From Carboxylicivirga sp. M1479 (GTDB lineage Bacteria; Bacteroidota; Bacteroidia; Bacteroidales; Marinilabiliaceae), in NCBI RefSeq assembly GCF_007097485.1, contig NZ_VKDE01000034.1, positions 1-48,802 of the forward strand: a stretch of 48,802 nucleotides of DNA, in the 5' to 3' direction. The notes below the pieces were generated by a model. That model was not told the origin of the DNA, did not search any database, and saw nothing but the letters and a program-made list of their open reading frames with translations. The translations under genes were made by a program, and so were the position numbers. Numbering within the stretch: position 1 is the stretch's first letter; each line of letters opens with the position of its first letter. This document shows, piece after piece, positions 326-16,093 of this stretch.

Positions 326-802
326 TTATCTGTATTCTTCCAGAATACCTTTTACATCTTCTGCAGCAACGCGACCATAAACTTTTTCGCCTACAGTAAC
401 AACTGGTGCAAGTCCACAAGCACCAACACAACGTAAACAGCTGATTGAAAACTTACCATCTTCTGTGGTTTCTCCAACTTTTACATCAAGATGACGCTTA
501 AATTCATCCAATACTTTCTCGGCTCCACGAACATAACAAGCTGTACCCATACAAATTGAAATAGGGTGCTCTCCTTTAGGAATCATCGAGAAGAAAGAAT
601 AAAATGTAACAACACCATAAACATGAGCAACTGAAACATTCATTTCACTAGCTACCAACTCCTGAACCTCAGCAGGAAGATAACCGAATAATTCCTGAGC
701 TGCATGAAGCGCGTTAATTAACTCACCTCCTTCGTTACCGAGTTTTTTACAAACTCCTCTTAATTCTTCCACCTTGCCGGCGGGTAATTTTATATCTGCC
801 AT
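326..802 (-). CDS. hydC: NuoE-like [2Fe-2S] subunit of [FeFe]-hydrogenase set 1
   Basis: This is a 158-residue protein of the 24-kDa NuoE family. It has a helical N-terminal part and a thioredoxin-like C-terminal half whose four cysteines, C84, C89, C125 and C129, form the usual C-x4-C ... C-x3-C ligand set for one [2Fe-2S] cluster. In HydABC/HndABCD enzymes this subunit docks on the NuoF-like flavoprotein and takes part in NAD(H)-linked electron transfer in the cytoplasm. I chose the ATG at 800-802 because family homology begins there. An in-frame ATG at 836-838 would add 12 residues (ILESFILKKRK) that do not look like the family. It is the last gene of its operon, after hydA1, whereas set 2 begins with its NuoE-like gene. 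Confidence 0.88.
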   Translation of the reverse strand: MADIKLPAGKVEELRGVCKKLGNEGGELINALHAAQELFGYLPAEVQELVASEMNVSVAHVYGVVTFYSFFSMIPKGEHPISICMGTACYVRGAEKVLDEFKRHLDVKVGETTEDGKFSISCLRCVGACGLAPVVTVGEKVYGRVAAEDVKGILEEYR

Positions 803-884
803 TTTTCTTTTCTTTAAGATAAAAGATTCAAGTATCAAGTATCAAGATGGCCTTTCATCCTGATACTTATAGCTTGATACTTTT

Positions 885-2651
885 TTAGATTTCAACCTTC
901 TTTTTCTTATCATGATAATGAGTGTGAAGTAATTCGTGCGACTTATGTCCACAAGGTTCTCCTAAAAACTCAGAGTATAACTTCTGAATAAAAGGATTCT
1001 CGTGCGACTTACGAATTACTTTACCTTTATCTTCTTCGTAAATAGCTTTCTGGCGCTTCTTCAACACTTCAACATCACCATGGTGATATGGCTGACCACC
1101 ACCACCGATACATCCACCAGGACATGCCATGATTTCGATCGCATGGAACTGTGATTTACCAGCTCTTATATCTTCTAACAATTGACGTGCATTACCTAAG
1201 CCATGCGCAATACCAATATTGATAGGCAGACCATCAAAATCGATAGTTGCCGAACGAATACCATCAAAACCACGTAACTCTTCGAAATCAAGCTTCGGAA
1301 GTGGCTTTTTAGTGTGAACTTCATATGCCGTACGAACAGCAGCTTCAATTACACCTCCTGTAGTACCAAAAATAACGGCAGCACCTGTTGACTCACCCAT
1401 TGGCTTGTCAAAGTCATCATCTTCTAATGCTTCAAAATTCAAGTTGGCATTACGAATCATCTGAGCCAACTCACGAGTGGAAATTGACAAATTAACATCC
1501 GGATCACCGTCTACCTTGAACTCATCACGAGCACACTCATATTTCTTCGCCAAACATGGCATTACTGAAACAACAACAACATCTTCACGCTTCTGCTTCA
1601 ACTGGTCTGCAAAATAAGTTTTGGCGATAGCACCAAACATCTGCTGAGGCGATTTAGCTGTTGATGGAATATCAATCATGTCAGGAAAATGATGTTCGAA
1701 GAAATTCACCCAACCAGGACAACACGAAGTCAAAATCGGTAATTTCACATCTTTATCTCCTGCCAGGTGTTTTCCTAAACGATCTAACAACTCTGTTCCT
1801 TCTTCCATAATGGTAAGGTCAGCAGCAAAGTCAGTATCAAATACATGGTCGAAACCTAATTTGCGTAAAGCAGAAACCATTTTGCCAGTAACCAAAGTAC
1901 CAGCATCCATTCCAAACTCCTCACCCAAGGCTGCACGAACAGCTGGAGCAGTTTGTACAATTACTGTTTTCTTTGGATCAACAATGGCATCCATCACTTT
2001 AGCTGAACTATCGCGCTCTGTTAAAGCACCTGTTGGACATACAGCGACACACTGACCACAGAATGTACAAGCCGAATGATCTAAATCCATTTCGAAAGCT
2101 GGTGCAACAACCGATTCAAAACCTCGATTAATGGCTGAAAGCACACCTACTGTTTGTACGTCGTTACAAGCTGTTTCGCATCGACGACACATGATACACT
2201 TTTCCATTTCGCGAACGATAGCAGGAGATTCATCACTCTTGTAAGAGTTCTTCTCACCCTGGTAACGCACTTCGCGAATACCCAGGTTCTGCGCCATTGT
2301 TTGCAACTCACAATCACCAGATTTAGAGCAAACCAAACACTCAAACGGATGATCTGATAAGATCAACTCCATTACTGTACGACGCGCATTAACTACACGT
2401 ACTGAGTGTGTTTGAATGTCCATACCTTCGGTACATTCAGTTTTACAAGCTGGCGCTAAGTTGCGACGACCTTCAACCTCAACCACGCAAACACGACATC
2501 CGCCCGGCTTATTCTCAATGTTCATATCGTGCAGCTTCATATGACATAAGGTAGGAATATCCACCCCGATGTTTTTAGCTGCCTCTAAGATGGTAGTGCC
2601 TTGCTCAACAACTACCTTTTTATTATCTATGCTTAATTGAACGATTTCCAT
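885..2651 (-). CDS. hydA: [FeFe]-hydrogenase catalytic subunit 1 (group A, trimeric/NAD-linked)
   Basis: This 588-residue catalytic subunit reduces protons or oxidises H2. Domains in order: a [2Fe-2S] ferredoxin-like domain (C36, C52, C55, C69), a His-Cys [4Fe-4S] site (H101, C105, C108, C114), two [4Fe-4S] clusters (C152/C155/C158/C162 and C195/C198/C201/C205), the H-cluster domain, and a small-subunit-like tail (about 530-588). All three H-cluster signatures are canonical: TSCCPGW at 308-314 (proton-transfer C310, ligand C311), MPCLAKK with C366, and MACPGGC with C510 and C514. This is the M3-type architecture of NAD(P)-linked and electron-bifurcating enzymes. It lies 34 bp after the NuoF-like gene and shares its operon. 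The maturases HydE, HydF and HydG are not in the window but would be needed. Confidence 0.96.
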   Translation of the reverse strand: MEIVQLSIDNKKVVVEQGTTILEAAKNIGVDIPTLCHMKLHDMNIENKPGGCRVCVVEVEGRRNLAPACKTECTEGMDIQTHSVRVVNARRTVMELILSDHPFECLVCSKSGDCELQTMAQNLGIREVRYQGEKNSYKSDESPAIVREMEKCIMCRRCETACNDVQTVGVLSAINRGFESVVAPAFEMDLDHSACTFCGQCVAVCPTGALTERDSSAKVMDAIVDPKKTVIVQTAPAVRAALGEEFGMDAGTLVTGKMVSALRKLGFDHVFDTDFAADLTIMEEGTELLDRLGKHLAGDKDVKLPILTSCCPGWVNFFEHHFPDMIDIPSTAKSPQQMFGAIAKTYFADQLKQKREDVVVVSVMPCLAKKYECARDEFKVDGDPDVNLSISTRELAQMIRNANLNFEALEDDDFDKPMGESTGAAVIFGTTGGVIEAAVRTAYEVHTKKPLPKLDFEELRGFDGIRSATIDFDGLPINIGIAHGLGNARQLLEDIRAGKSQFHAIEIMACPGGCIGGGGQPYHHGDVEVLKKRQKAIYEEDKGKVIRKSHENPFIQKLYSEFLGEPCGHKSHELLHTHYHDKKKKVEI

Positions 2652-2685
2652 TCTTCTATCTTTTACTGTTCAAAAACTGGTTTGG

Positions 2686-4479
2686 CTATTGAATGCTGAT
2701 CGCACCAAACTTACATTTTTCATAACAAGCACCACACTTGATACAAGTCTCCTGACTAATTAAGTGAGGTTCTTTCTTATCACCGGTAATCGCATCAACC
2801 GGACATACGCGAGAACACAATGTACAACCAATACATTTTTCGTCGCTGATAACATATTGCATCAATGACTTACACTGACCGGCTGGACATTTGCCATCAT
2901 GAACGTGAGCTTCGTACTCATCAGCAAAGTTTTCCATTGTTGAAAGAACCGGGTTTGGCGATGTTTGACCTAAACCGCAAAGCGAAGTATCCTTAATCAC
3001 ATTGCTTAAATTACGCAATAAAGTAAGGTCCTCCTCAGTTCCTTTTCCTTCGGTAATTTTATCAAGCATCTCATACAAACGCTTGTTACCGATACGACAT
3101 GGAGCACATTTACCACACGATTCTTCAACTGTAAAATCTAAATAGAATTTAGCCATTGAAACCATACAGTCATCCTCATCCATTACGATCATTCCTCCTG
3201 AACCCATCATAGAGCCAGAAGCCAAAAGATTATCGTAATCAATAGGAATATCTAAATGTTTTTCAGTTAAGCAACCTCCTGATGGTCCACCTGTCTGAAC
3301 AGCTTTAAATTTCTTACCATCTTTAATACCACCACCAATATCGAAGATAACTTCGCGTAGTGTGGTACCCATTGGTACTTCAATCAAACCAACGTTATTT
3401 ACCTTACCTGCTAAGGCAAATACCTTAGTACCTTTACTCTTTTCAGTTCCGATACTACTAAACCACTCTGCACCTTCTAATAAGATCACAGGTATATTGG
3501 CGTAGGTTTCAACGTTATTTACGTTGGTTGGCATACCCTTGTACCCACTTTCTGATGGGAATGGAGGCTTCACAGTAGGCTCGCCACGTAAACCTTCCAT
3601 TGAGTGAATTAATGATGTTTCCTCTCCGCAAACAAATGCTCCTGCACCATAGCGTAATTCTACATCAAAACTAAAATCGGTACCAAATATATTATTACCT
3701 AGTAAGCCGTACTCACGTGCTTGGTCAATAGCAATTTTCAAACGAGAAATTGCCAATGGATACTCTGCACGGATGTAAATTAATCCATGTGATGCACCTG
3801 TACAAAAACCATTAATAGCCATTGCTTCAAGCACAGCATGCGGATCTCCCTCTAGGATTGAACGGTCCATAAATGCACCTGGGTCTCCCTCATCGGCATT
3901 ACAAACCACATATTTCTGCTCAGCTTCAACTTTGCGGGTTATTTCCCACTTTAAGCCAGTTGGGAAACCACCTCCCCCACGACCACGAAGACCTGAGTCA
4001 ATTATCACCTTAATGGCTGCTTCTGGTGTCATTTCAGTTAACACTTTTCCTAGGGCAGCATAACCATCGCGAGCGATGTACTCATCAACATTTTCAGGGT
4101 TGATAAAACCACAGTTACGTAAGGCAATACGAATCTGTTTCTTGTAGAAACCCATATCTTTTGATTCTGATACACGCTCTTGTGTTTCAGGGTCGGTGTA
4201 TAGTAAACGCTCTACTTTACGACCTTTTACCAAATGCTCAGCCACAATCTCAGGAGCATCTTCAGGCGTTACCTGCACGTAAAAGGTATTGTCAGGAACC
4301 ATTTTAACAACAGGACCTTTTTCACAAAAACCGAAACAACCAGTTCTTACCACTTGTACTTCGTTTTCAAGGCTGTTTTCCTCTAAAACTTTTCCAAGAT
4401 TTTGTACAATTTCTTCCCCTTGCGAAGCACGACAGCCAGTTCCGCCACAAACAAGGATATGATTTTTATATTTAGCCAT
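2686..4479 (-). CDS. hydB: NuoF-like flavoprotein subunit, full-length form (set 1)
   Basis: This 597-residue diaphorase subunit resembles HydB/HndC. It has an N-terminal thioredoxin-like [2Fe-2S] domain (C11, C16, C48, C52), then the NADH/FMN-binding core with the glycine-rich GRGGGGFPTG around 166-175 and NADEGDPGAF around 194-203. A [4Fe-4S] site follows (C455, C458, C461, C501). The C-terminal extension holds two further [4Fe-4S] clusters (C549/C552/C555/C559 and C579/C582/C585/C589). FMN here is the proposed site where electrons from NADH and ferredoxin are split or merged. The gene starts 12 bp after the HndB-like gene and precedes hydA1. It differs from the set 2 paralogue, which has neither end domain. 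Confidence 0.95.
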   Translation of the reverse strand: MAKYKNHILVCGGTGCRASQGEEIVQNLGKVLEENSLENEVQVVRTGCFGFCEKGPVVKMVPDNTFYVQVTPEDAPEIVAEHLVKGRKVERLLYTDPETQERVSESKDMGFYKKQIRIALRNCGFINPENVDEYIARDGYAALGKVLTEMTPEAAIKVIIDSGLRGRGGGGFPTGLKWEITRKVEAEQKYVVCNADEGDPGAFMDRSILEGDPHAVLEAMAINGFCTGASHGLIYIRAEYPLAISRLKIAIDQAREYGLLGNNIFGTDFSFDVELRYGAGAFVCGEETSLIHSMEGLRGEPTVKPPFPSESGYKGMPTNVNNVETYANIPVILLEGAEWFSSIGTEKSKGTKVFALAGKVNNVGLIEVPMGTTLREVIFDIGGGIKDGKKFKAVQTGGPSGGCLTEKHLDIPIDYDNLLASGSMMGSGGMIVMDEDDCMVSMAKFYLDFTVEESCGKCAPCRIGNKRLYEMLDKITEGKGTEEDLTLLRNLSNVIKDTSLCGLGQTSPNPVLSTMENFADEYEAHVHDGKCPAGQCKSLMQYVISDEKCIGCTLCSRVCPVDAITGDKKEPHLISQETCIKCGACYEKCKFGAISIQ

Positions 4480-4491
4480 AGCGTAAAAAAA

Positions 4492-4899
4492 CTATTCGTT
4501 TTTATTCTCTTTTACTGTTTCGTAATTCACTGGGATGATTCCATCCACCAACTCTCCTCTGATAACATACTTTTCTATGATTTCATCGGCCTTTTTATTA
4601 TCCACATGACCAAAAACCACAGGGTCGTTACCTGGTAGCGTTACTTCAATGGTTGGTTCTGCGTGGCAGAAACCCATACATCCTGTTTGAGTTACTATGG
4701 CATCAATTGCCTGACGATCCATTTCTTCAATCATATGGTTCATCACTTCTTTTGCTCCTGAGGCAATACCACAGGTAGCCATCGACACTTTTACCTGAAC
4801 CAACTTTTCAGGATTGTCGCTTTTCTCACGCAAACTAACTTTAGTCTGCAATTCATCGCGCATTTTACGCAAATCAGCCAGAGATTTTACTTTTGACAT
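4492..4899 (-). CDS. HndB-like thioredoxin-fold ferredoxin (set 1)
   Basis: A 135-residue protein resembling HndB of NADP-reducing hydrogenases, with a thioredoxin-like [2Fe-2S] fold. An N-terminal helical segment (about 1-35) is followed by the core. The second cysteine pair, C74 and C78 in TGCMGFC, is clear. At the first pair only C43 is seen (TCGIASGA), so three of the usual four ligands are present. This also appears in HndB relatives, and whether a cluster binds is uncertain. It opens the catalytic part of the downstream operon, 65 bp after the HATPase gene and 12 bp before the NuoF-like gene. It is probably an accessory electron carrier of set 1. Confidence 0.85.
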   Translation of the reverse strand: MSKVKSLADLRKMRDELQTKVSLREKSDNPEKLVQVKVSMATCGIASGAKEVMNHMIEEMDRQAIDAIVTQTGCMGFCHAEPTIEVTLPGNDPVVFGHVDNKKADEIIEKYVIRGELVDGIIPVNYETVKENKNE

Positions 4900-4964
4900 A
4901 GCGATTGGTTATTATTAATTACACATTCCTTTATATAGTCTGGATGCCTGACCAAGTCAGACAT

Positions 4965-5510
4965 TTAATCAAATTCGATATTCAATTCTTTTATATTCTC
5001 TTCAATCATTTCTTTTAAGAAACTTGTTACCTGAGGCATGCGGATGTCTACATCGCCCATTACCTCTTTTACTTCATTTGTACTAATGGCAAATTCATCT
5101 GCACCTCTTTTTAATGAAAACTGCAAATTAACACCATCATTACCGGTCATCATCATAGCAACTGTGGATGATAAATTACCGATGGGTGGACGATCCCAAT
5201 GTTTTAAACCGAACTTAGCAATAAGCGTGGTGCCCTTTCCAAGTATTGATTTAAGTATCATTTCACCGTTTGTTAATTCGGCATTTTGCTTTATTAAAGG
5301 AATGCCTAATCCCACCTTACGAGTGGTTCGTGATGTATAAAATGGATCTGTAACTTTCTCCAATGTATCGGCATCCATACCAGTACCATCGTCAACAACT
5401 TTAATTTCCAACCATTGACTATCAAGCTGGATATTCAATTCAACATTACTGGCTTTTGCCCTAACTGAATTCTGGACGATGTCCATAATATGCATTGATA
5501 AGTCCTTCAT
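4965..5510 (-). CDS. histidine-kinase-type ATPase domain protein
   Basis: This 181-residue protein has a single GHKL ATPase domain and no sensor or dimerisation/phosphoacceptor domain. Visible motifs are the N-box (DIVQNSVRA), the G1 box (VVDDGTGMD), a lid segment with DPFYTSR, the G2 box (GLGIPL) and a final GKGT. The remaining 60 residues, from about 120 on, are not recognisable. Its start codon overlaps the PHP gene stop by one base, so the two are translationally coupled. Similar stand-alone ATPases occur beside HydS genes in clostridia and Thermotogales. A kinase acting on a protein of this cluster is likely, but the partner is unknown. Confidence 0.85.
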   Translation of the reverse strand: MKDLSMHIMDIVQNSVRAKASNVELNIQLDSQWLEIKVVDDGTGMDADTLEKVTDPFYTSRTTRKVGLGIPLIKQNAELTNGEMILKSILGKGTTLIAKFGLKHWDRPPIGNLSSTVAMMMTGNDGVNLQFSLKRGADEFAISTNEVKEVMGDVDIRMPQVTSFLKEMIEENIKELNIEFD

Positions 5511-6253
5511 TACTTTAACTCCACTACCTTTCTACCATCTTGTTTCCTCAGTGCTTTTCTTAGTTCATCAAAACTAGCTTCAGCCAATTCTACTATTGAA
5601 TAATGACTCCCTATTTGATCAGGAAAATGAGCATCTGATGAACGAAGCACTGTTAATTTTTTTAATTCCGGATGTTTACCTAACATTTCGTCAACATTAA
5701 CCCTTGCACTCATCCCAATGGCATCGGGCTTTATATCAAAAGGCATAAACCCCAATTGACTATAAATACTAAAGCTCGGACGAAAAATATGTGCTGGAAT
5801 AAACAATCCATCCAATTGTCGAACCTTTTGCTCAAGCTCGTCAATTGATTGGTCAAGGCCACTTATCAACAAACGCTCCTCTTGCCCTAGTATTTCTTCG
5901 TTAGCATCTACCCAAACCTGATGACCAAATTTATCAACATCATTTTGAATATTAGGTAAATGCGCATCCAAATACATTTGAAAGGCTTCAAGTTTCTCAA
6001 TATTTTCAAAGAACGTTAAACAGTGTACTTCTTCTTTGGTGGTTACCTCTGCTCCACCCAACACCGTTAATCCTTTTTCCTGACCTAACTTAATAACTTC
6101 GGCACATTGCCTTGTTGAATTATGGTCGGTTATGCCAATTATATCTAATCCTCGTTGTAAAGCCGTTTCAACAATGACTGTTGGACTCATCTCCAAACTA
6201 CCACATGGAGATAAGACCGTATGCATGTGCAAGTCGGCCTTAAAACGCTTCAT
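5510..6253 (-). CDS. PHP-domain metal-dependent phosphoesterase-like protein
   Basis: A 247-residue protein with the PHP fold (histidinol phosphatase/DNA polymerase III alpha N-terminal type). Metal-site motifs are present: DLHMHTVLSPCG near the N-terminus, GITDHNS around 41-47, a conserved His in IPAHIFRPS, and SSDAHFPD near the C-terminus. The ligands appear intact, so phosphoesterase activity is likely, but the substrate is unknown. The gene is separated from the DRTGG gene by one base and overlaps the ATPase gene by one base. PHP genes recur in hydrogenase-sensor clusters, so a role in the signalling block is inferred from context. Confidence 0.85.
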   Translation of the reverse strand: MKRFKADLHMHTVLSPCGSLEMSPTVIVETALQRGLDIIGITDHNSTRQCAEVIKLGQEKGLTVLGGAEVTTKEEVHCLTFFENIEKLEAFQMYLDAHLPNIQNDVDKFGHQVWVDANEEILGQEERLLISGLDQSIDELEQKVRQLDGLFIPAHIFRPSFSIYSQLGFMPFDIKPDAIGMSARVNVDEMLGKHPELKKLTVLRSSDAHFPDQIGSHYSIVELAEASFDELRKALRKQDGRKVVELK

Positions 6254-6254
6254 A

Positions 6255-6590
6255 TTATCCTTTCAATAACTGATACAGCTCGCCTGATAATTCGTAGGCT
6301 TCCATGCTTGAACTTAACAGTGGAATACCTTCATCATTACTTTGGCTAATGGTGTTTTCATCAGCTTCTAAATCCTTAACAATAATTACAGCAGCCACCT
6401 CTTTAAGTGATGCCACCGCCATAACATTTCTATGGGTTTGAAGAGTAATCCATATCTGACCTTCGTCAACATTACCCATTACATCACTTAGCAAATCTGA
6501 AGTATAACCTCCTGTTACTTCATTTTGTAAGCCTTCTTCTCCACCTATTACCTTAAGGTTGAGTTTTTCTATAATGTCACAAACCTTCAT
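6255..6590 (-). CDS. DRTGG-domain protein 2
   Basis: A 111-residue protein consisting of one DRTGG-like domain, the fold found next to the kinase domain of HPr kinase and in CBS-domain pyrophosphatases. The YTSDLLSDVM segment (29-38) is the characteristic part. There is no P-loop, so it is not itself a kinase. It overlaps the end of the preceding Fe-S protein gene by 14 bp. It resembles the second DRTGG protein at 8395-8751 (FASDLMSDVL in the same place), which suggests an old duplication. It is probably a ligand-binding or protein-interaction module. The exact function is unknown. Confidence 0.78.
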   Translation of the reverse strand: MKVCDIIEKLNLKVIGGEEGLQNEVTGGYTSDLLSDVMGNVDEGQIWITLQTHRNVMAVASLKEVAAVIIVKDLEADENTISQSNDEGIPLLSSSMEAYELSGELYQLLKG

Positions 6591-7956
6591 TCTTTGCTCC
6601 TTTTTTCTTACAATCTTTATCTAATCGATCTTTTCCCCAGGTTTTTTCAATGATACGAATTGAATGCATTGGGTCCAGTTTCTTTGTTTTTTCCATCATG
6701 CGTTGCACAAAAACACAATTTGATAAATGTGCTTCTTTACTAACAATATCTTTAGCAAGGCTCTCACAATTAGGAGCTCCACAAGCTCCACAATCGATAC
6801 CTGGCAAATAACACATCATACGACGCACTCGCTCCATCTTCTTGAGAGCGATACCCATGTCTTCGTCCAACACCATCATAGAGCGAGGTTCAATTTTTCC
6901 AACTTCGCTCGTTTCTTTAATCATCTGCTTATGCTTCTCCGAAATGTTTTGAACATATTTACCAGATGCATTAATTCTATCTGCCCTATTTTTGATTCGC
7001 TCTACCGTCAGAAATCGGTTTTCAGTTAACAAAACTCCACCTGCACAACTTTGATCACAAGCTCTTAGTTCTAAGAAATCGACATTGACAATCTCATCGT
7101 TTTCAACTTTCTCAAGAAAAGAAATAACATTGTGTATTTCATCAATTGCCAAACAACGCCCTGTCATATTTGAAGCTTCACCCTCTGTTAAACTCCAATT
7201 TAATCCCTTAGGCGATAAATAAGGCACAGTATCGTGGCATACATCAGCCGATTCGGCTCGAGTTTTTAAAACGTGGTAGACTTTATTGTAAAGAAAATCC
7301 ATATTAATAACGCCGTCTACATTGGACATTTCATCACCAACAGGACTCTTTACCGTTGCTATTTTAGAAGCACATGGCGTTACATAAAAAACTCCTATCT
7401 CATCAGAACTCTTTCCTTCTTCCTGAAGTAATTGACGGTAATACGAAGCAGTGCTATCAATAGGTGGTTTTACTGGAATTATATTATTAACCAAACCAGG
7501 GAAACGTACTTGAATTAAACGAACAATAGACGGACAAAACGCACTGATCATTGGCTTTTCTCTATCTGAACGTTGTTCTTCCAGCATCGCTTCGTTAATA
7601 ACATCAACTGTTGCTTCTGCAGGAACAACGTGAGTAAAACCGAGGCTTTTTAGCACATCAATTATCTCACATTCCTTTATATGTTTCGAAAACTGCCCAA
7701 TAAACACAGATGGCAAAATAGCCACTCGATGTTTAAAACTAAATATCTTTTCAAAATCGTCTTGTTCGACATAGAAAGCATCAACAGGACAGGCTTTCAT
7801 ACATTCACCACAATCAACACACCAGTTCTTTCGAATGGTAGCAATACCATCCCTTATACGGATAGCATCCGTTGGACAAACATTCATGCAATGGGTACAT
7901 CCATAACACAAATCCTTATCAACTTTTAATGCATGATAAAACTGCTGATCGCTCAT
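6577..7956 (-). CDS. divergent [FeFe]-hydrogenase-like Fe-S protein (group D-like)
   Basis: A 459-residue protein. Domains: two N-terminal [4Fe-4S] clusters (C17/C20/C23/C27 and C46/C49/C52/C56), an H-cluster-type domain (about 75-320) and a C-terminal [4Fe-4S] domain of the RnfB/CO-dehydrogenase kind (C389, C392, C397, C414). The four cysteines expected to hold the H-cluster cubane are kept: C141 (AFCPS), C195 (TPCASK), C300 and C304 (ACDQSC). The proton-transfer cysteine before C141 is Phe, the PGW of motif 1 is lost, and the GGGG stretch of motif 3 is reduced. A sensory or regulatory role is more likely than turnover. Its neighbours are an RsbW-like ATPase and a DRTGG protein. Confidence 0.85.
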   Translation of the reverse strand: MSDQQFYHALKVDKDLCYGCTHCMNVCPTDAIRIRDGIATIRKNWCVDCGECMKACPVDAFYVEQDDFEKIFSFKHRVAILPSVFIGQFSKHIKECEIIDVLKSLGFTHVVPAEATVDVINEAMLEEQRSDREKPMISAFCPSIVRLIQVRFPGLVNNIIPVKPPIDSTASYYRQLLQEEGKSSDEIGVFYVTPCASKIATVKSPVGDEMSNVDGVINMDFLYNKVYHVLKTRAESADVCHDTVPYLSPKGLNWSLTEGEASNMTGRCLAIDEIHNVISFLEKVENDEIVNVDFLELRACDQSCAGGVLLTENRFLTVERIKNRADRINASGKYVQNISEKHKQMIKETSEVGKIEPRSMMVLDEDMGIALKKMERVRRMMCYLPGIDCGACGAPNCESLAKDIVSKEAHLSNCVFVQRMMEKTKKLDPMHSIRIIEKTWGKDRLDKDCKKKGAKNEGL

Positions 7957-7968
7957 AGCTTAAACATC

Positions 7969-8385: not shown

Positions 8386-8394
8386 ACACTTTTA

Positions 8395-9001: not shown

Positions 9002-10192
9002 TTACATGTATTCAATGCTTACGTCTTTGAGGAATTTCTCTTCGAGCAAACGCACAACTCGCTTAACAACTGTACGACGTATCTCTAATTCAACAGGTAA
9101 ATTAGGGTCTTGATGCGCCACATTAATTCTTGTTCCATTAAGAATATGTATTCGATCACTCTCAAATAGTTTTTTTATAATTTGTTCGGCTGGCCCTTTA
9201 CCTAGCTTGCTATCATTATTGTACGATTCGAGTAAACGTGCCACCTTACCTAAGGTTAAAATACCTTCTGTCACTAAACTTATCCCTTCCATAAACGAAA
9301 CAGGTGGCAATTCCGAATCTTCAGAATCAATACCAGCATCAAACTTTAGTGCTAGCTCTCTTGCCACAACTTCAGCGGTTGTCCCACCAGCAATTATTTT
9401 CTGCCCCTTAAATTGCTTTACTTTTAAAGAGAACGTAAAATCATTATGCTCGTCAAAAGGAGGCCCGGTTACTAGTAGTAATTTACGTGGCTCACGGTAA
9501 TAAATCACGCCACATGAGGTGTCATCTTTTGGTTCATCGCCATCGTGTAACTTAGCCATATTTATTACTTTTTGCGCCAATTTCCCTGATGAAGCAAAAG
9601 GAGTGTATTTTACAATTTTCCTAACATAAGATCCTAAATCATCACGGCCCCAACCAAAGGGGAAAGCCCGCGAACCCATGCCTGATTGCACAATGCCATC
9701 AGACCAAAAGAAAATGCGATCCTCCAGGCGAGCCTTGAACTTACATATACGTAATTTTTTGCCCTTGTTTTTATCACTTTTAAGGATCAAATCTTCCCAG
9801 CCAGGATCAAATTCTGATTGCCCTCGCATAACCAAGCACAATGGATTATCGTATTCAACAATGGTGGTCGTTCCATCATCTTCAATGTCAATTATGGTGA
9901 ATGTACTGTAACTTACTTTTCTAACACTGCAAACAGGTAGTGTATTCATTATTATCTCAGCCGAGCGAGCAACCTCACGGTGTTCAATTGTAAAATTCAT
10001 TGCCATAGAAGCAGTTAACGTTGCCAATACATTAGCTTTAACACCACTTCCCATTCCATCAGAAAGCACAGCAATAATCCTCCCTTCCTCTTTAATCCTA
10101 TGAGAAAGAAATACATCGCCACAAATCATTTCTCCTACATGATTAAATTGGCGACACTCAACATCAATAAAAAAGTTATTTTCCAATTCCAT
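9002..10192 (-). CDS. SpoIIE-family PP2C-type phosphatase of the hydrogenase cluster
   Basis: A 396-residue protein. Residues 1 to about 232 form a PP2C/SpoIIE domain, with metal-binding motifs SDGMGSG (about 46-52), FFWSDGIVQSG and DDTSCG. The remaining 160 residues (LLLVTGPPFDEHND, then a GGTTAEVVA segment) form a domain I cannot name. Such phosphatases dephosphorylate serine/threonine on STAS or other partner proteins. The start codon lies 17 bp inside the end of the hydS gene, so the two are tightly coupled. HydS probably controls or forms a complex with this phosphatase, which suits the lack of any kinase domain in HydS. Confidence 0.88.
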   Translation of the reverse strand: MELENNFFIDVECRQFNHVGEMICGDVFLSHRIKEEGRIIAVLSDGMGSGVKANVLATLTASMAMNFTIEHREVARSAEIIMNTLPVCSVRKVSYSTFTIIDIEDDGTTTIVEYDNPLCLVMRGQSEFDPGWEDLILKSDKNKGKKLRICKFKARLEDRIFFWSDGIVQSGMGSRAFPFGWGRDDLGSYVRKIVKYTPFASSGKLAQKVINMAKLHDGDEPKDDTSCGVIYYREPRKLLLVTGPPFDEHNDFTFSLKVKQFKGQKIIAGGTTAEVVARELALKFDAGIDSEDSELPPVSFMEGISLVTEGILTLGKVARLLESYNNDSKLGKGPAEQIIKKLFESDRIHILNGTRINVAHQDPNLPVELEIRRTVVKRVVRLLEEKFLKDVSIEYM

Positions 10193-12035
10193 TGGCTTCT
10201 CCTAATTGCTGAGCTTCAATAATACTATTGAGTGTTTTCTCTGTTTTTGAGGCACTCTCACCCAATAAGAAAGCTATTTGCTGAACAGTTTCCAGGTTTT
10301 CCTTGATAACATCACGTGCCCGCTTTATAACCTCTTCTTTTCGTACTTCAGGCGTTATTAAATCGCGAATAATACCACCAACGACTTCATTACTTTTTAT
10401 GGTAAATACCGATACATTAAAAATAGAATCGGCATAATCAACATCCCTGTCTAATACATCCTGCCCCGATTGCAAAACTGTTGAAAACACTTTATGAAAA
10501 TCAACCAAACTCTTCAGTTCAGCCCCTTTTAATCCTGGAACTACTTCGGCTATCTCACGCGCATCATCACCAAGCATTTCAATAAAACGCTGATTAGCTT
10601 CCAATACATTTAATCGCTTATCAACTATTACAACACCAGCTCTTAACTTATTTAACATGGCTGTTGTAGTTTTAGATGCCTCTATTGCTAATGCTTCTTC
10701 AACTCTTGCCTTTTCTTCACTTTTAACAAGTGCTTCCTGAGTTTTTTTATACTTTTCGTTGGATGCATTAACCTTACTTACATATGAACGTAACTTTTTA
10801 ATTGAATAAGTATAGCACTGTTCATAATCAGTTAAGCCCTGTAAGTGTGCTACAGCGAACTCTTCGCACGACGGATAACCACATGCTCCACATCCAAGCT
10901 GATCTTCACATTTTGACTTACCCATATCGGCCAATACAACATCTACTTCTGCTTTGGTAGGCACGGGCAAACGTAAATTTTTTGCCTTAAAACTTCGTGA
11001 TAAGTCCAAACTTTTGAACTCAACAATATCTAAGCGCCATTGATAGGCATCAATCGCTTTCATTCGCTTATTAACATACTTAATAACCTGCGATCGCCTG
11101 GTAAACTTCTTTCCACCTTGCGACATTCCAGGACCCTGAATACAGCCTTTGCAGTAAAACAAATCGAGATGTTGACTTAGTTGATTTTCAGATTTGAACT
11201 CTTTAATCGATTGTAAAAAATTAGTTCGCCCTTCGGTTATAAGAATGTCCCCTTCGAGCAATCCTTGATTAATATCAACTGATTGAAATAATCCGTGTGA
11301 AATTGGGAATAATCCACCCTTTCGACCTAATGGTGGGTCAAATTCGCTAAATTCAACGGTATTTTCAGTTATACTTCTCTTGGCGAACAGCTTACGTAAC
11401 TCCACAAATGTGAGCACTCCATCAACATGACCATCGGTATGATAAAACTGTTTAACTTCATCTTTAGCGGCCGTACACGCGGTTAAGTAAACAACCTTTA
11501 CATCTTCCCCATAGCGTTTATGAATCACTTTAGACATTGCAATATAAGGCGGAACAATTGGGGCTAAATTATCAACTAATTCAGGCTCCTGCCGTTCGAT
11601 ATAACTGGTAACAGGCGGGCATTTGGTTGTTATAAAATGCTTCCCCTGAAAGTTTTCAACTAAATCTTTATACTTGTATGCAATCAGATCAACAGCAAAC
11701 GACATTTCAGTAACAATGTCAAAGCCAACTTCTCGTATCATAGCGACAAACTTTCGATAGTCAGCTACATCGGTAAATTCACCCGAAATTGCAGGATCAC
11801 AAATAGCAGCAACCTTGCTATTCGTACTTACCAAATCCTCAACATTCTCAATGTCACTCCGATAATTAATTGCTCCTTGCGCACACATGGTAACACACTG
11901 TCCGCAACCAATGCATCTATCGGCTATTATTTGCGCATGCTTATCGGCAATTTTAATTGCCTTTGCCGGACATACGCGCACACACGTAAAACTTAAATTA
12001 CACTTATCTTTATCACTAACAATCAGTTGCCCCAT
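10176..12035 (-). CDS. hydS: sensory [FeFe]-hydrogenase with PAS domain (HydS, group C-like)
   Basis: A 619-residue protein. It has two N-terminal [4Fe-4S] clusters, with the second CIGCGQC site starting at C41, then an H-cluster domain (about 70-335). The H-cluster motifs are divergent: TTKCPP with C139 in place of TSCCPGW, TACTAAK with C187, and CKGCIQGPG with C295 and C298 only two residues apart. A C-terminal [4Fe-4S] domain follows (C376/C382/C385/C390/C407 region), then a probable coiled coil (about 410-460), a PAS domain (about 462-575) and a helical tail. There is no histidine kinase or methyl-accepting output domain. Group C relatives are thought to sense H2 or redox state. It begins 8 bp after the small ferredoxin gene and overlaps the phosphatase gene. 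Confidence 0.88.
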   Translation of the reverse strand: MGQLIVSDKDKCNLSFTCVRVCPAKAIKIADKHAQIIADRCIGCGQCVTMCAQGAINYRSDIENVEDLVSTNSKVAAICDPAISGEFTDVADYRKFVAMIREVGFDIVTEMSFAVDLIAYKYKDLVENFQGKHFITTKCPPVTSYIERQEPELVDNLAPIVPPYIAMSKVIHKRYGEDVKVVYLTACTAAKDEVKQFYHTDGHVDGVLTFVELRKLFAKRSITENTVEFSEFDPPLGRKGGLFPISHGLFQSVDINQGLLEGDILITEGRTNFLQSIKEFKSENQLSQHLDLFYCKGCIQGPGMSQGGKKFTRRSQVIKYVNKRMKAIDAYQWRLDIVEFKSLDLSRSFKAKNLRLPVPTKAEVDVVLADMGKSKCEDQLGCGACGYPSCEEFAVAHLQGLTDYEQCYTYSIKKLRSYVSKVNASNEKYKKTQEALVKSEEKARVEEALAIEASKTTTAMLNKLRAGVVIVDKRLNVLEANQRFIEMLGDDAREIAEVVPGLKGAELKSLVDFHKVFSTVLQSGQDVLDRDVDYADSIFNVSVFTIKSNEVVGGIIRDLITPEVRKEEVIKRARDVIKENLETVQQIAFLLGESASKTEKTLNSIIEAQQLGEANGIGK

Positions 12036-12043
12036 TTTAAAAC

Positions 12044-12304
12044 TTACTTCTCCTGTTCAACTTCAAAGTAATCATTTAATACTTCATATACATTATCCAC
12101 AGTAACTTTCGAAAAAGTTTGATCATCGATCTGTAATACAGGCCCATTTTCACACTTTCCCCCACATAAATCACCATGAAAAAAAACTTCTGCTGCTAAA
12201 TCATGCTCGTTTAAAAATTCTTTCACAATTTCTAAAACATCCTTATTTCCTCTTGAAAAACAAGAACTTCCAAGGCATATTACTATCTCATGCTTTGTTT
12301 CCAT
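12044..12304 (-). CDS. small thioredoxin-like [2Fe-2S] ferredoxin
   Basis: An 86-residue protein equal to the C-terminal half of NuoE, a stand-alone thioredoxin-like ferredoxin. All four ligands are present: C10 and C15 (C-x4-C), C47 and C51 (C-x3-C). It resembles the N-terminal domain that the set 2 NuoF-like subunit lacks, so it may replace that domain as a separate subunit; alternatively it hands electrons to HydS, whose gene starts 8 bp downstream. A terminator-like hairpin separates it from hydA2, placing it at the head of the sensory transcription unit. Confidence 0.85.
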   Translation of the reverse strand: METKHEIVICLGSSCFSRGNKDVLEIVKEFLNEHDLAAEVFFHGDLCGGKCENGPVLQIDDQTFSKVTVDNVYEVLNDYFEVEQEK

Positions 12305-12341
12305 AATTAACTAACTCGAAATTATTGGTCAAAGTAGTAAA

Positions 12342-12367
12342 AAGAAACCGACAGTTGCCGGTTTCTT
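12342..12367 (-). terminator. terminator-like hairpin after hydA2
   Basis: AAGAAACCG (12342-12350) pairs with CGGTTTCTT (12359-12367). On the minus strand the stem is followed by TTTTACTAC. It lies 11 bp past the hydA2 stop and before the small ferredoxin gene, so it may separate or attenuate transcription between set 2 and the sensory genes. Confidence 0.7.
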
Positions 12368-12377
12368 ATCAATAAAA

Positions 12378-14168
12378 TTAATAGCGATTTCGTTCGGTAT
12401 AGTGCGTATGTAGTAACTTGTGCGATACCTCACCTAAAGGCTCTTTCAAGAACTCTTCGTAAAGATGAATCACTTCTGGGTTTTCATGTGATTTTCTGAT
12501 TGGCTTTAATTCATCCTCATGGTAGATTGCTTCGCTACGTTTTTTACGAATAGCCGGCGATGTAGGGATAGGTTGCCCACCTCCTCCCAAGCATCCACCA
12601 GGACAGGCCATTATTTCAATAAAGTGATAATTGGCTTTACCATCCCGAACGGCCTCCATTACTTTTTTTGCATTGGACAGGCCATGTGCAACACATGTTT
12701 TAAGCTCCACTCCTTCCAAAAAGTCCCATTCTGGTAAAACATTTTCAATTTTAATGGTAGCTTCCCGAATATAATCCATACCTCTAACAGGGGTAATATT
12801 CAATCCTTCAAATGGTACCTCTCGACCTGTAACAACCTCATAGGCGGTTCGTAATGCAGCTTCCATAACACCACCCGTTGCACCAAAAATAACAGCGGCA
12901 CCGCTGGATTCTCCCATTATGCTATCGTATTCATCATCGGGTAATGAGGCAAAATCAATTCCTGCTTGTTTAATCATCAAAGCCAGCTCACGAGTCGTTA
13001 GCACATAATCAACATCCTTAAATCCACTACTGCGCATTTCAGGTCTATCCGCTTCGTACTTCTTGGCTGTACAAGGCATAATGGAAATACTTACCATGTT
13101 TTCAGGATCAACTTTCAACTTATTGGCGTAAAATGTTTTGGCTAAGGCACCAAACATCTGCTGAGGAGATTTGGCAGTTGAAACATTTGGCAGATACTCA
13201 GGAAATGCATGCTCAATAAACTTAACCCAGCCTGGAGAACACGAGGTTGTTAATGGTAAACGCACAGTTGTATCTTTGTCTTTCACCACTTTTTTTAAGC
13301 GATGTAACAACTCATTACCTTCTTCAATAATGGTTAAATCAGCTGTAAAATCGGTATCCAAAACTGAACTAAACCCCAAGCGTCTTAAAGCTGAAACCAT
13401 TTTACCTGTAACAATTTCTCCCACAGGCATACCCAAAGCTTCACCCAAAGCTATTCGCACAGCAGGCGCCGTTTGAACTACTGTGTGCTTCGTTTCTGAG
13501 TTAAGTGCCGTCCAAACTTCATCGAGGTATGTTTTTTCAGTTAATGCTCCAGTTGGGCATCGATTAACACATTGCCCGCAATTGGTACATACAACTTCAA
13601 ACATAGGTTTATCAAAAAATGACGAAACCTTCATGCTTTCTCCTTTATGAGCTACGGTTAGGGCACTAATACTTTGTAATTGGTCGCAAGTACGCACACA
13701 TCGTTGGCACCGAATGCATTTGCTATCATCTTTAATAATTGATGGAGAAAAGTTATCTATTGTGTAGCCTTTATGAGCGACTAAATCAATAAAACCATTC
13801 TCTCCTACAATATATTCAGAAGACAACTCCTGCAACTCACATTTACCATTTTTATAACATCGTGTGCAATCAGCTCGATGTTCACTTACCAAAAGCTCAA
13901 CAATTTGTTTACGGGCATTACGCACTTTCATGCTGTTTGTATGAATTTCCATGCCTTCTGAAACAGGCATAGCACAGGCTGGCAATAAACGATCACTGCC
14001 TGTTTGTTCAACTACGCAAATGCGACAATTGCCTGCCACGCATAAATCTTCGTGATAACATAAAGTAGGAATCCGAACATTAATTTTTTCTGCCGCTTCA
14101 AGAATGGTTGATCCATTTTTAATACTAACAGCTATATTATCTATTTTAAGATTAACCTTATCTGACAT
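12378..14168 (-). CDS. hydA: [FeFe]-hydrogenase catalytic subunit 2 (group A, trimeric/NAD-linked)
   Basis: A 596-residue paralogue of HydA1 with the same M3-type order: [2Fe-2S] domain (C37, C48, C51, C65), His-Cys [4Fe-4S] site (H97, C101, C104, C110), two [4Fe-4S] clusters, H-cluster domain and small-subunit-like tail. Motif 2 (MPCTAKK) and motif 3 (MACPGGC) are canonical. Motif 1 reads TSCSPGW: the second cysteine, which by Clostridium pasteurianum numbering ligates the H-cluster cubane, is Ser (codon TCT on the coding strand). I have seen this TSCSP form in other NAD-linked hydrogenases as far as I recall, but cannot confirm it here. It follows the NuoF-like gene by 16 bp and ends at a hairpin. 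It should form a trimer with the products at 14185-15411 and 15614-16093. Confidence 0.95.
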   Translation of the reverse strand: MSDKVNLKIDNIAVSIKNGSTILEAAEKINVRIPTLCYHEDLCVAGNCRICVVEQTGSDRLLPACAMPVSEGMEIHTNSMKVRNARKQIVELLVSEHRADCTRCYKNGKCELQELSSEYIVGENGFIDLVAHKGYTIDNFSPSIIKDDSKCIRCQRCVRTCDQLQSISALTVAHKGESMKVSSFFDKPMFEVVCTNCGQCVNRCPTGALTEKTYLDEVWTALNSETKHTVVQTAPAVRIALGEALGMPVGEIVTGKMVSALRRLGFSSVLDTDFTADLTIIEEGNELLHRLKKVVKDKDTTVRLPLTTSCSPGWVKFIEHAFPEYLPNVSTAKSPQQMFGALAKTFYANKLKVDPENMVSISIMPCTAKKYEADRPEMRSSGFKDVDYVLTTRELALMIKQAGIDFASLPDDEYDSIMGESSGAAVIFGATGGVMEAALRTAYEVVTGREVPFEGLNITPVRGMDYIREATIKIENVLPEWDFLEGVELKTCVAHGLSNAKKVMEAVRDGKANYHFIEIMACPGGCLGGGGQPIPTSPAIRKKRSEAIYHEDELKPIRKSHENPEVIHLYEEFLKEPLGEVSHKLLHTHYTERNRY

Positions 14169-14184
14169 AATCTGATTTTTGAAA

Positions 14185-15411
14185 TTAATAAATCATTTCT
14201 TCTTTGAAATTTTCAACAATAGAAGAAAAAGAGTTAGCAACAGATTGGCCCAAACCACACTTAGACGTTACGCGCATAGCTTCGGCCAGCACCAATAATT
14301 TATCAAGATAGGATGATGGCTGCTCGCCTTTTTTAACTGCCTGAATACCTAATAATAGCTGCTGGGTACCTACTCGACAAGGTGTGCATTGACCACACGA
14401 TTCTTCTACGAAAAAATCGAGATAATTATGCAATACATTGTACATTGAGCGAGATGAGTTAAAGATCATCATGGAACCGCCAGTTGGAAGCGAAGTTCCA
14501 CGAAGTTTACCCTGATATCCAATAACTGTTTTTACAAATTTCTTACGAGGAACGCAAAAGCCAGAAGCTCCACCCACCTGCACGGCTTTGGAATCTCCAT
14601 CTCCAAAATCATCAACAAATTTTTGCAAGGACATTCCAAACTCAAGCTCATAAATTCCAGGATTAGGTGTATCTCCAGATACCGAAAATACTTTTGAGCC
14701 ACGTGAATCCTGAATTCCTAAATCCTTGAATTTATCGGCTCCATATTTAAGTATAGAATAAGTATGTGCTAATGTTTCAACATTGTTTATAACGGTTGGC
14801 TCACCCATGTAACCAAAATCCGTTGGAAATGGAGGTTTATTACGAGGTTCTCCCCTTTTTCCTTCCATACTTTCGAACAAAGCACTTTCCTCTCCACAGA
14901 TGTAAGCACCACTTCCCATAAAAATATCAACTTTAAAATTGATATTTAAAACCTCTAATAATTTGTGAAATTCATCAATAACAGATAATAGCTGTGGCTT
15001 TAAAAATTTATATTCGCTACGCAGATATATAAACCCTTTTGTAGAACCAATAATATTAGCACATACTGCCATGCCTGTTAATACCTTATGTGGCACACTG
15101 GATAAAATCTCACGATCTTTAAAAGTACCAGGCTCCCCTTCATCAGCATTGCAAATAACATACTTCTGCTCAGCTTGTGCTTCGGCGGCTAATTTCCATT
15201 TTAATCCAGTTGGAAAGCCTGCGCCGCCTCTTCCTTTCAAACCTGAACTTATCAAATCGTTTATCACTTCATCGTGACTTCGATCTAAGGTCTTCCTTAA
15301 TATAGCTTCGGTATCGTGTTCATTTTTAAAAATGAGATCAAGACGTTGTAAATTCTTTTTCATCAGTATATTTTTATCGTTCTTTTGACAGATAGAGCTT
15401 TCTACAAGCAT
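14185..15411 (-). CDS. hydB: NuoF-like flavoprotein subunit, short form (set 2)
   Basis: A 408-residue diaphorase subunit containing only the NADH/FMN core and its [4Fe-4S] site. GRGGAGFPTGLKW lies at about 60-72, NADEGEPGTF near 88-97, and the cluster motif ESCGQCTPC plus SKCGLG near the C-terminus. It has neither the N-terminal thioredoxin-like domain nor the C-terminal two-cluster ferredoxin domain of the set 1 protein, and so is close to NuoF in size. The start is uncertain: the first ATG is at 15409-15411, but the ATG at 15361-15363 (MKKNLQRLDLIF) begins where family homology starts. It lies 202 bp after the NuoE-like gene and 16 bp before hydA2. Confidence 0.92.
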   Translation of the reverse strand: MLVESSICQKNDKNILMKKNLQRLDLIFKNEHDTEAILRKTLDRSHDEVINDLISSGLKGRGGAGFPTGLKWKLAAEAQAEQKYVICNADEGEPGTFKDREILSSVPHKVLTGMAVCANIIGSTKGFIYLRSEYKFLKPQLLSVIDEFHKLLEVLNINFKVDIFMGSGAYICGEESALFESMEGKRGEPRNKPPFPTDFGYMGEPTVINNVETLAHTYSILKYGADKFKDLGIQDSRGSKVFSVSGDTPNPGIYELEFGMSLQKFVDDFGDGDSKAVQVGGASGFCVPRKKFVKTVIGYQGKLRGTSLPTGGSMMIFNSSRSMYNVLHNYLDFFVEESCGQCTPCRVGTQQLLLGIQAVKKGEQPSSYLDKLLVLAEAMRVTSKCGLGQSVANSFSSIVENFKEEMIY

Positions 15412-15518
15412 TTTTGGATTCGCATTTTACCAAACACTATAGCGATAAGCAGTTAACAAATATGCTCCATCAGTCAATAATTATACTTTAATTTTCTTTG
15501 ATTCCTTGAGAATAATTG

Positions 15519-15557
15519 GAAACACTATCATGCAAGACACATGAGGCTAAGTGTTTC
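15519..15557 (-). other. structured RNA candidate between the NuoE-like and NuoF-like genes
   Basis: GAAACACT (15519-15526) pairs with AGTGTTTC (15550-15557). Inside it, TCATG (15528-15532) pairs with CATGA, giving a two-tier hairpin. It sits in an unusually long 202-bp gap within an otherwise tight operon and has no T-run. An RNA processing site or a post-transcriptional control element is possible. Confidence 0.4.
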
Positions 15558-15613
15558 TATATGGAAATCAAGAATTTGTCTAATTGCAAATTGAAACCAT
15601 TCTGCAAAAGCAA

Positions 15614-16093
15614 TTAGTTAGCACTAATCTCTTGTTGTTTGTATTTCATTATTATCGAACGCACTTTTTCGGGGGTCAGTTCTGTATAGGGTTCATCGTT
15701 TATGAGCATGGCTGGTCCTTTATGGCATTGACCTAAACAGTTTGTTTCTAAAAGGGTAAACTTGCCATCGTGTGTTGTTTCTCCAAGTTTTACTTTTAAA
15801 ACTGTTTCAAGCTCCTGAATGACCTGATTTTTGCCATGCATCATACAAGTTATCGTCTTGCAAACGCGGATAACGTATTTTCCAAGTGGTTTTGTGTGTA
15901 GAAACGAATAGAAAGTCGCTGTTCCATACACTTGAGCTGCAGATATATCAAGCTCGCGTGCAACTTCCACCATTGCATCTTCAGAAATGTGCTGTTGTTG
16001 ATGAACAATTCCTTGAAGAATAGGTAAAAGGCTCTCCATTGTCCGACCATGTTGATCGGCCAATCCTTTTACCAATAGTTTTACTTCTGTCAT
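15614..16093 (-). CDS. hydC: NuoE-like [2Fe-2S] subunit of [FeFe]-hydrogenase set 2
   Basis: A 159-residue NuoE-family protein with an N-terminal helical region and a thioredoxin-like domain binding one [2Fe-2S] cluster through C78, C83, C119 and C123 (CKTITC and CLGQC). It pairs with the short NuoF-like subunit and HydA2. It is the first gene of the set 2 operon, read away from the divergent gene at 16356. The upstream 262 bp hold an inverted repeat that may be an operator. It is only moderately similar to the set 1 NuoE-like protein, so the two sets are not a recent duplication. Confidence 0.92.
   Translation of the reverse strand: MTEVKLLVKGLADQHGRTMESLLPILQGIVHQQQHISEDAMVEVARELDISAAQVYGTATFYSFLHTKPLGKYVIRVCKTITCMMHGKNQVIQELETVLKVKLGETTHDGKFTLLETNCLGQCHKGPAMLINDEPYTELTPEKVRSIIMKYKQQEISAN

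Follow-up and report, generated by a model that had tools for sequence, protein, structure and literature searches.

The window analysed here is a stretch of 48,802 nucleotides at the start of contig NZ_VKDE01000034.1 of Carboxylicivirga sp. M1479 (RefSeq assembly GCF_007097485.1, genome size 5.4 Mb). Sixteen minus-strand genes span its positions 326-16093, with intergenic gaps of -17 to 250 base pairs (bp), and encode two [FeFe]-hydrogenase sets together with a group of signalling proteins between them. The order in the direction of transcription is nuoE2, nuoF2, hydA2, fdx2, hydS, spoIIE, D2, K2, HL, D1, PHP, K1, fdx1, nuoF1, hydA1, nuoE1. Gene names are based on Pfam and NCBIfam matches; the short labels D1, D2, K1, K2 and HL are specific to this analysis, as are the labels of loci (L and a number) and genomes (G and a number). 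The genes D2, K2, HL, D1, PHP and K1, which encode two DRTGG, two GHKL, one H-like and one PHP protein, are referred to as the six-gene unit. A first-pass annotation had described two NAD-linked [FeFe]-hydrogenase sets around eight genes for sensing and phosphorylation. All of these genes lie where it placed them, and their names are backed by Pfam and NCBIfam; its list omitted the two small [2Fe-2S] genes, fdx1 and fdx2. The features of the region are as follows.

15614..16093, minus strand: nuoE2 (HydC2), NuoE-like [2Fe-2S] subunit of set 2 (PF01257, 5e-48)
14185..15411, minus strand: nuoF2 (HydB2), 408 amino acids, non-bifurcating signature PGTFKDR / GSGAY / GGASG (Pfam and residue criteria)
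12378..14168, minus strand: hydA2, group A [FeFe]-hydrogenase catalytic subunit; L1 TSCSPGW, L2 MPCTAK, L3 EIMACPGGCLGGGGQP
12305..12377, minus strand: terminator-like hairpin and T-run separating hydA2 and fdx2 (alignment of relatives)
12044..12304, minus strand: fdx2, small thioredoxin-like [2Fe-2S] protein (PF01257, 7.2e-11)
10176..12035, minus strand: hydS, HydS-like sensor with 2x[4Fe-4S], H-domain with altered L2/L3, FeS (PF04060), PAS and C-terminal tail
9002..10192, minus strand: spoIIE, SpoIIE/PP2C-type phosphatase with conserved Asp residues (PF07228, 5.1e-9)
8752..9001, minus strand: conserved block between spoIIE and D2, where two modules meet; may be a promoter region and contains the palindrome TGAT-N4-ATCA
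8395..8751, minus strand: D2, DRTGG protein, near-invariant Ser39 in DLxSDV (PF07085, 4.9e-7)
7969..8385, minus strand: K2, GHKL ATPase, SpoIIAB/RsbW-like (HATPase_c_2), conserved boxes
6577..7956, minus strand: HL, with 2x[4Fe-4S], divergent H-domain and C-terminal FeS (PF04060)
6255..6590, minus strand: D1, DRTGG/HPr-kinase-N-like, near-invariant Ser35 in DLLSDV (PF02603, 2.7e-6; PF07085, 6.1e-5)
5510..6253, minus strand: PHP, phosphoesterase-type protein, His/Asp/Glu conserved (PF02811, PF13263)
4965..5510, minus strand: K1, HATPase_c protein (PF02518, 2.2e-15)
4492..4899, minus strand: fdx1, small thioredoxin-like [2Fe-2S] protein between K1 and nuoF1 (PF01257, 5e-5, just below the Pfam cut-off)
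2686..4479, minus strand: nuoF1 (HydB1), 597 amino acids, full HydB, bifurcating signature PGAFMDR / GAGAF / GGPSG
885..2651, minus strand: hydA1, group A [FeFe]-hydrogenase catalytic subunit, L1 TSCCPGW
326..838, minus strand: nuoE1 (HydC1), NuoE-like subunit (PF01257, 1.1e-48)
227..256, minus strand: 13-pair terminator-like hairpin 3' of nuoE1 (consensus match)

The open reading frame of nuoE1 starts with TTG, and an alternative in-frame ATG lies 36 bp further downstream. D2 is above the DRTGG cut-off of Pfam and D1 slightly below it. Pfam found no histidine-kinase phosphotransfer domain in K1. The C-terminal part of SpoIIE, about 160 amino acids long (residues about 239-396; window 9002-9480), is strongly conserved and has no Pfam match.

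Two hydrogenases of differing predicted type

HydA1 and HydA2 share 50% identity, and both exceed the cut-off of FeFe_hydrog_A6, the NCBIfam model for the NADH-dependent group A6. The H-cluster motifs of group A are present in both proteins, with L1 reading TSCCPGW in HydA1 and TSCSPGW in HydA2, and with L2 and L3 intact. The possibility that the serine of HydA2 marks a lost H-cluster ligand was dropped: the solved chain 7q4v_A (deposited as iron hydrogenase HydA1) aligns with TSCSPGW, and serine at this position is reported as common in the relevant passage of PMC11406978.

The NuoF subunits separate the two sets. The best solved relative of NuoF1 is chain 7q4v_B, HydB, and NuoF1 carries N-terminal [2Fe-2S] and C-terminal 2x[4Fe-4S] domains, neither of which was found in NuoF2 by Pfam. 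The criteria given in a passage of PMC7311640 for bifurcating HydB are A/E232, M234, F367 and GGPSG (T. maritima numbering) together with extra Fe-S domains; those for non-bifurcating proteins are T/S at 232, K/S/A at 234, Y at 367 and no GGPSG. With these positions assigned by motif and not through alignment to T. maritima HydB, NuoF1 of set 1 shows the bifurcating combination (PGAFMDR, GAGAF, GGPSG and the extra Fe-S domains), and NuoF2 of set 2 the non-bifurcating one (PGTFKDR, GSGAY, GGASG). The distinction is maintained among relatives at loci L051-L116. The complete bifurcating signature occurs in 49/53 NuoF1-type proteins, the remaining four being three short pieces and one protein missing one motif, and T, K and Y occur in 37/37 NuoF2-type proteins (GGASG in 26, no GGxSG in 11, GGPSG in 0). 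Set 1 is consequently predicted to be of the electron-bifurcating type and set 2 of the NADH-only (non-bifurcating) type. Compared by sequence criteria alone, NuoF2 resembles the non-bifurcating HydABC of Syntrophomonas wolfei and HydAB of Syntrophus aciditrophicus in these residues and in the absence of the extra Fe-S domains. Since the predicted energetic types differ, a balance between both enzymes would make sense.

Distribution of the arrangement and its modules

The cluster is a family trait composed of separable modules, namely the HydS-SpoIIE pair and the six-gene unit, each of which is also found apart. HL was used to trace it, with a strong-match cut-off of E<1e-50 chosen for this analysis (at E<=0.001 all 149 relatives searched match through their H-domains and Fe-S domains). 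Strong matches are present in 66/149 genomes, among them the genome of the window and each of the 13 further genomes of its genus, and the neighbourhoods of the 65 other HL-positive genomes form 66 stretches. The full arrangement was scored on ten genes (the six of the unit, hydA1, hydA2, hydS and spoIIE), which had to be in place and co-directional. Stretches were counted if they reached at least 7.8 kb upstream and at least 6.2 kb downstream; two from the genus, eight from other genera of the family and ten from other families were too short. The ten-gene arrangement is found in 11/11 same-genus loci, in 16/23 loci of other genera of the family and in 0/12 loci of other families of the order. 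All 16 genes keep the same order in the 11/11 same-genus loci uncut by a contig end (2 more are cut), and this conservation across the genus is more than chance. The earlier view that such a set is unusual in Bacteroidota finds no support in the family itself, where it is common, although it is missing from the other families counted.

In those other families, the six-gene unit is accompanied by set 1, has set 2 directly upstream, or lacks both, and HydS-SpoIIE lies elsewhere or is divergent. The hydA1 gene is co-directional with the unit and downstream of it in 40/46 loci with long flanks. A scan of genome contigs gave 582 confirmed HL relatives, of which the best 80, mostly from Bacteroidota, supply the named HL loci. 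Long flanks are available for 43 of these 80, with the six genes and hydrogenase genes in 25 and other mixtures in 6. Spread beyond Bacteroidota is judged just from L200 and a few others (L169, L187, L196) among these best 80 of 582, and a scan of viral contigs gave no HL relative. A phylum-wide search found relatives of the window SpoIIE in 11/296 genomes; in 6/10 loci read from this search outside the own genome, a bifurcating-type trimer is found close to HydS-SpoIIE and the six-gene unit is absent. Two loci show further variation. L208 (G398) has the shuffled order spoIIE-nuoE2-nuoF2-hydA2-hydS, another linkage of HydS-SpoIIE to a non-bifurcating set, and in L116 (G432) a more remote form, D1-K2-HL, precedes nuoE1-nuoF1 and a 775-amino-acid protein that matches HydA1 weakly (134 bits) and is perhaps another bifurcating enzyme.

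The association with hydrogenases also extends across families. In 78 families of the order, represented by one genome each and scored for SpoIIE at E<1e-100, HydA1-type HydA is present in 23/25 SpoIIE-positive families versus 3/53 SpoIIE-negative ones (p=2e-14), and in 18/21 HL-positive families versus 8/57 HL-negative ones (p=6e-9). SpoIIE itself occurs in 18/21 HL-positive families versus 7/57 HL-negative ones (p=2e-9), and this holds also where the two are unlinked. Where A2-type HydA was listed and A1-type was not, SpoIIE is present in 0/14 families at the same cut-off. HydG associates less tightly with HL (15/21 HL-positive families versus 26/57, p=0.04). Overall, each of the two regulatory modules tracks the bifurcating enzyme, even though set 2 is the neighbour of HydS-SpoIIE in the window. 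The proposed tie between the regulatory genes and the hydrogenases is thereby borne out: they are conserved together, and SpoIIE and HL co-occur with bifurcating-type HydA.

The boundaries between modules can also be recognised. In the genus, a long conserved block fills the 250-bp gap between spoIIE and D2. Between hydA2 and fdx2 lies a hairpin followed by T's, whose stem is maintained by paired changes in relatives (12 sequences aligned, omitting L052, L059 and L063, where the gap is 0 or >700 bases). This hairpin is absent from the list of the terminator scan, which gave 14 terminator-like sites in the region against 10.4 expected, a total that is uninformative, as is that of the sigma-70 promoter scan (50 sites against 49 expected). 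Three transcripts are likely, as judged from these boundaries: set 2; fdx2-HydS-SpoIIE; and the six-gene unit with set 1. The idea of one self-contained block is not sustained, since the modules occur separately and the conserved intergenic region splits spoIIE from D2.

The palindrome TGAT-N4-ATCA in that region resembles a Crp/Fnr-type site according to what we take to be the family consensus. As such a site it was given no weight: it is kept in 12/14 loci L051-L064 but in 14/29 family loci, and the window holds 3 matches against 1.4 expected. The genes beyond the block (16356-19994) look unrelated and encode a Schlafen AlbA_2 protein (plus strand), a beta-lactamase-family hydrolase (minus strand) and a NamZ muramidase (minus strand).

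Sensor proteins, maturases and known relatives

The four H-site cysteines are kept in 52/52 HydS proteins, which fall into two clean classes. In the window class, which comprises 41/52 proteins (3 of the 41 being the same genomes fetched twice), L3 reads CxxC, with two residues and not three between the cysteines. The Lys at the third position behind the L2 Cys is exchanged for Ala (36) or Ser (5), and the L2 variants read out likewise have Ala or Ser in place of the Pro before this cysteine. The canonical class (11) includes a second copy in the own genome (L019), R. albus and more distant Bacteroidota. CxxC without the Lys is found in 41/41 proteins of the first class, and CxxxC with the Lys in 11/11 of the second. 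In the C. pasteurianum enzyme, the residues at these altered L2/L3 positions hold the two-iron subcluster. The canonical motifs PCxxK and CxxxC, by which a group C3 protein would be taken as an H2 sensor, are absent from the window HydS. Judged by these residues, window-class HydS is more likely a redox sensor than an H2 sensor. In HL, Cys141, 195, 300 and 304 are invariant in 18 proteins; it has ACDQSC in L3 and a Phe at what we presume to be the site of the proton-relay Cys. The suggestion that the block senses H2 has thus become doubtful, as window-class HydS and, less clearly, HL deviate from the usual H-cluster motifs.

The input side also varies in architecture. SpoIIE adjoins the unit, divergent from D2-K2-HL, in five loci (L105, L135, L136, L138 and L161; L137 is similar but cut), which belong to two Draconibacterium, a Sunxiuqinia, a Prolixibacteraceae metagenome-assembled genome (MAG) and G435. 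Its partner there is a PAS-PAS protein in which PAS replaces the hydrogenase head, and in L135 the C-terminal PAS and tail of this partner are 46% identical to window HydS over 169 residues. The PAS-tail portion would therefore be the constant part of the input and the head exchangeable, which argues against H2 as the common signal.

No match to the maturases HydE, HydF or HydG passes the family cut-offs in eight HL-positive genomes (Parabacteroides G443-G446 and the MAGs G368, G407, G414 and G435), and window-type HydS occurs in two of them, G368 and G414. HydA1-type HydA with motifs L1-L3 is present in all eight except G414. Among 38 genomes of the genus to which P. gordonii belongs, a sample that excludes G445 and G446, HydG is found in 0/38 and HydA1-type HydA in 15/38; L1 and L2 are intact in 15/15 of these and L3 in 14, the fifteenth being cut. 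Such genomes have either enzymes without the two-iron cluster, or another maturation route, or relic genes, and the conserved H-cluster motifs speak against relics. HydABC1-type genes with HL and five or six unit genes, and no maturase above cut-off, were seen in G443-G446 (L120-L123, L202-L205), the genus of G443 (L211-L225), G368, G407 and G435. In 11/13 other genomes of the window's own genus, the contig with hydA1 also includes HydG, some 0.9-10 kb past hydA1. The window contig ends at the 1-325 side, and the HydG of this genome sits on another contig (C42).

HydS with a phosphatase corresponds to HydDB group C3, whose role is described as undetermined in the passage concerned (PMC5037454). 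The window shows the gene combination of C3, an H-domain protein encoded with a Ser/Thr phosphatase, as judged without the HydDB classifier. HydS-SpoIIE operons are described, in the parts of these papers that deal with them, for R. albus (PMC6776011) and Thermoanaerobacterium (PMC11837493). HfsB-HfsC of Thermoanaerobacterium and the R. albus pRUMAL01 set share with the window a HydS with PAS, an overlapping SpoIIE-type phosphatase, small [2Fe-2S] proteins and a hydrogenase nearby. In contrast, Pro and Lys of L2 and one residue of L3 are missing from the window HydS, its neighbours are trimeric NAD-linked enzymes, and the six-gene unit follows. The second locus of the own genome, L019, is closer to the R. 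albus and Thermoanaerobacterium hfs sets; about positions 7856-14695 of it encode a PAS/sigma-54 activator, fdx, canonical HydS, SpoIIE, fdx and a 485-amino-acid hydrogenase. The sigma-54 activator beside this second HydS-SpoIIE copy is the nearest hint at an output.

PMC11406978 reports a C3 'T' subunit next to an A3 HydABC (BfuABC) in Hydrogenedentota and also in three Bacteroidota, where there are two T genes. The passages on these clusters describe neither the DRTGG/PHP/GHKL unit nor a bifurcating and NADH-only pairing around it. A clostridial likeness is offered by a Subdoligranulum record (L200), in which D2-K2-HL-D1-PHP is divergent from nuoE1-K1-fdx1-nuoF1-hydA1; it differs in being split into two divergent arms, and the 19.8 kb read gave no match to set 2 or HydS-SpoIIE. 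A passage of PMC9304861 names hisK and hydD in a related operon as lying outside the enzyme. Literature searches bearing on the six-gene unit, made mostly without subscription journals, gave no description of it, and the DRTGG passage found when linking hydrogenase with DRTGG concerns lactate use. The block is ordinary within the family, built from a known pair (HydS-SpoIIE) and a unit without a description found; what merits further attention is the pairing of the two enzymes and the altered class of HydS.

A possible redox switch and its alternatives

The idea of a controller is plausible. The presumed catalytic residues of SpoIIE, K2 and PHP are conserved. The best NCBIfam match of K2 is the anti-sigma F factor kinase model TIGR01925, below its cut-off, and D1 and D2 have in common the near-invariant Ser in DLxSDV. 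A partner switch of the RsbU/RsbW/RsbV type is thus partly represented: the PP2C phosphatase and GHKL kinase are present, and the STAS antagonist and sigma factor were not found among the 16 proteins, so that the classical switch is incomplete within the cluster.

The reading preferred here, to which about an even chance is given, is a lineage-conserved composite of two NAD-linked [FeFe]-hydrogenases of differing predicted energetic class and two regulatory modules acting as a kinase/phosphatase push-pull. Gene content, order, co-inheritance, enzyme signatures and residue changes are read from the sequence, and from these we infer transcripts, phosphorylation, sensing and output. Under the control of HL, the SpoIIAB-like K2 would phosphorylate a small partner; the simplest candidates are the DRTGG proteins, with the conserved DLxSDV serine as the target. 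SpoIIE would strip the phosphate again under the control of the HydS-like sensor. HydS and HL would be hydrogenase relatives that keep the four H-site cysteines, with the two-iron subcluster probably absent from HydS and possibly from HL, and they would read the redox state of a low-potential electron pool rather than H2 itself. The output would fall mainly on the bifurcating enzyme or its expression. A narrower form of this proposal is tentative and has the balance of probability against it: HydS and HL may be hydrogen-independent redox sensors driving the phosphatase and the kinase in a STAS-less phospho-switch with the DRTGG proteins, which would set the use of the bifurcating hydrogenase independently of the two-iron maturation pathway.

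Several observations weigh against these proposals. HL retains the CxxxC spacing and the L2 lysine, which makes the case for a lost two-iron site weaker in HL than in HydS. Maturases (HydG and HydE were found) and the canonical second HydS are present in the own genome; consequently, H2 sensing could still take place in this cell. Phosphorylation of the DRTGG proteins is a guess. Pfam found no STAS, sigma factor or DNA-binding domain among the 16 proteins, the rest of the genome being unsearched. Among the 43 long-flank loci from the best 80 of 582, 9 have only D2-K2-HL and 3 have the six genes without a nearby hydrogenase gene, and the unit may therefore serve other enzymes too. One of the 14 A2-only families, G418, has a weak SpoIIE match (9e-28), and G424 has SpoIIE and no A1-type HydA, its HydA match standing outside the listed rows and hence not among the 14. 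Finally, SpoIIE is present in 6/8 order-level genomes with HydA1-type HydA but no HL, and HL occurs without SpoIIE in 5/66 HL-positive genomes; neither module, then, requires the other.

In an alternative explanation, the cluster consists of two adjacent hydrogenase operons, both complete and equipped with regulators of their own, which were joined once in a family ancestor and kept by descent without shared control. The occurrence of the modules apart in other families, the conserved block and the hairpin at the two boundaries, and the presence of the full arrangement in one family only among the loci counted are all what would be expected from it. However, SpoIIE and HL strongly co-occur across families even where unlinked and come together again, divergently, in five loci, and SpoIIE tracks HydA1 of the other module and not the adjacent HydA2. 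Separate operons are considered rather unlikely.

The classical form of the idea, improbable by the same weighing, would have HydS sense H2 through its H-cluster, with SpoIIE and GHKL as an RsbU/RsbW-like switch adjusting transcription of both hydrogenases to H2. Neither the altered class of the window HydS, nor the five relatives with PAS for the hydrogenase head, nor window-type HydS in genomes without HydE/HydF/HydG above cut-offs fits it well, and the cluster encodes no STAS or sigma factor by Pfam. It draws support from elsewhere: HydS-SpoIIE falls in HydDB group C3, labelled 'phosphatase-linked (putative)' in the passage of PMC5037454 concerned; an H2-responsive gene set of Ruminococcus albus contains such a pair according to a passage of PMC6776011; and the own genome has the canonical CxxxC/PCxxK copy beside a sigma-54 activator and maturases. 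Least probable of all is that the six-gene unit has no signalling role and helps to assemble, repair or protect the bifurcating enzyme, PHP and GHKL acting on a phosphorylated metabolite or folding partner. HL is missing from 14/75 genomes with HydA1-type HydA and hence is not always needed, and the closest model for K2 is an anti-sigma factor kinase, albeit below cut-off, even though HL follows HydA1-type HydA (18/21 HL-positive families), hydA1 is mostly co-directional downstream, and the residues taken to form the PHP metal site are conserved.

If the composite of two hydrogenases and a push-pull control is right, an easily read gene set would mark anaerobes that control a bifurcating hydrogenase by redox state. 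HL, K2, D1, D2 and PHP would then be ready candidates for a control layer of which the literature searches made gave no description. The altered HydS class is a warning that the annotation 'HydS' need not imply an H2 sensor. With a bifurcating and an NADH-only enzyme encoded side by side, a single organism could perhaps change its mode of H2 disposal in step with H2 pressure.

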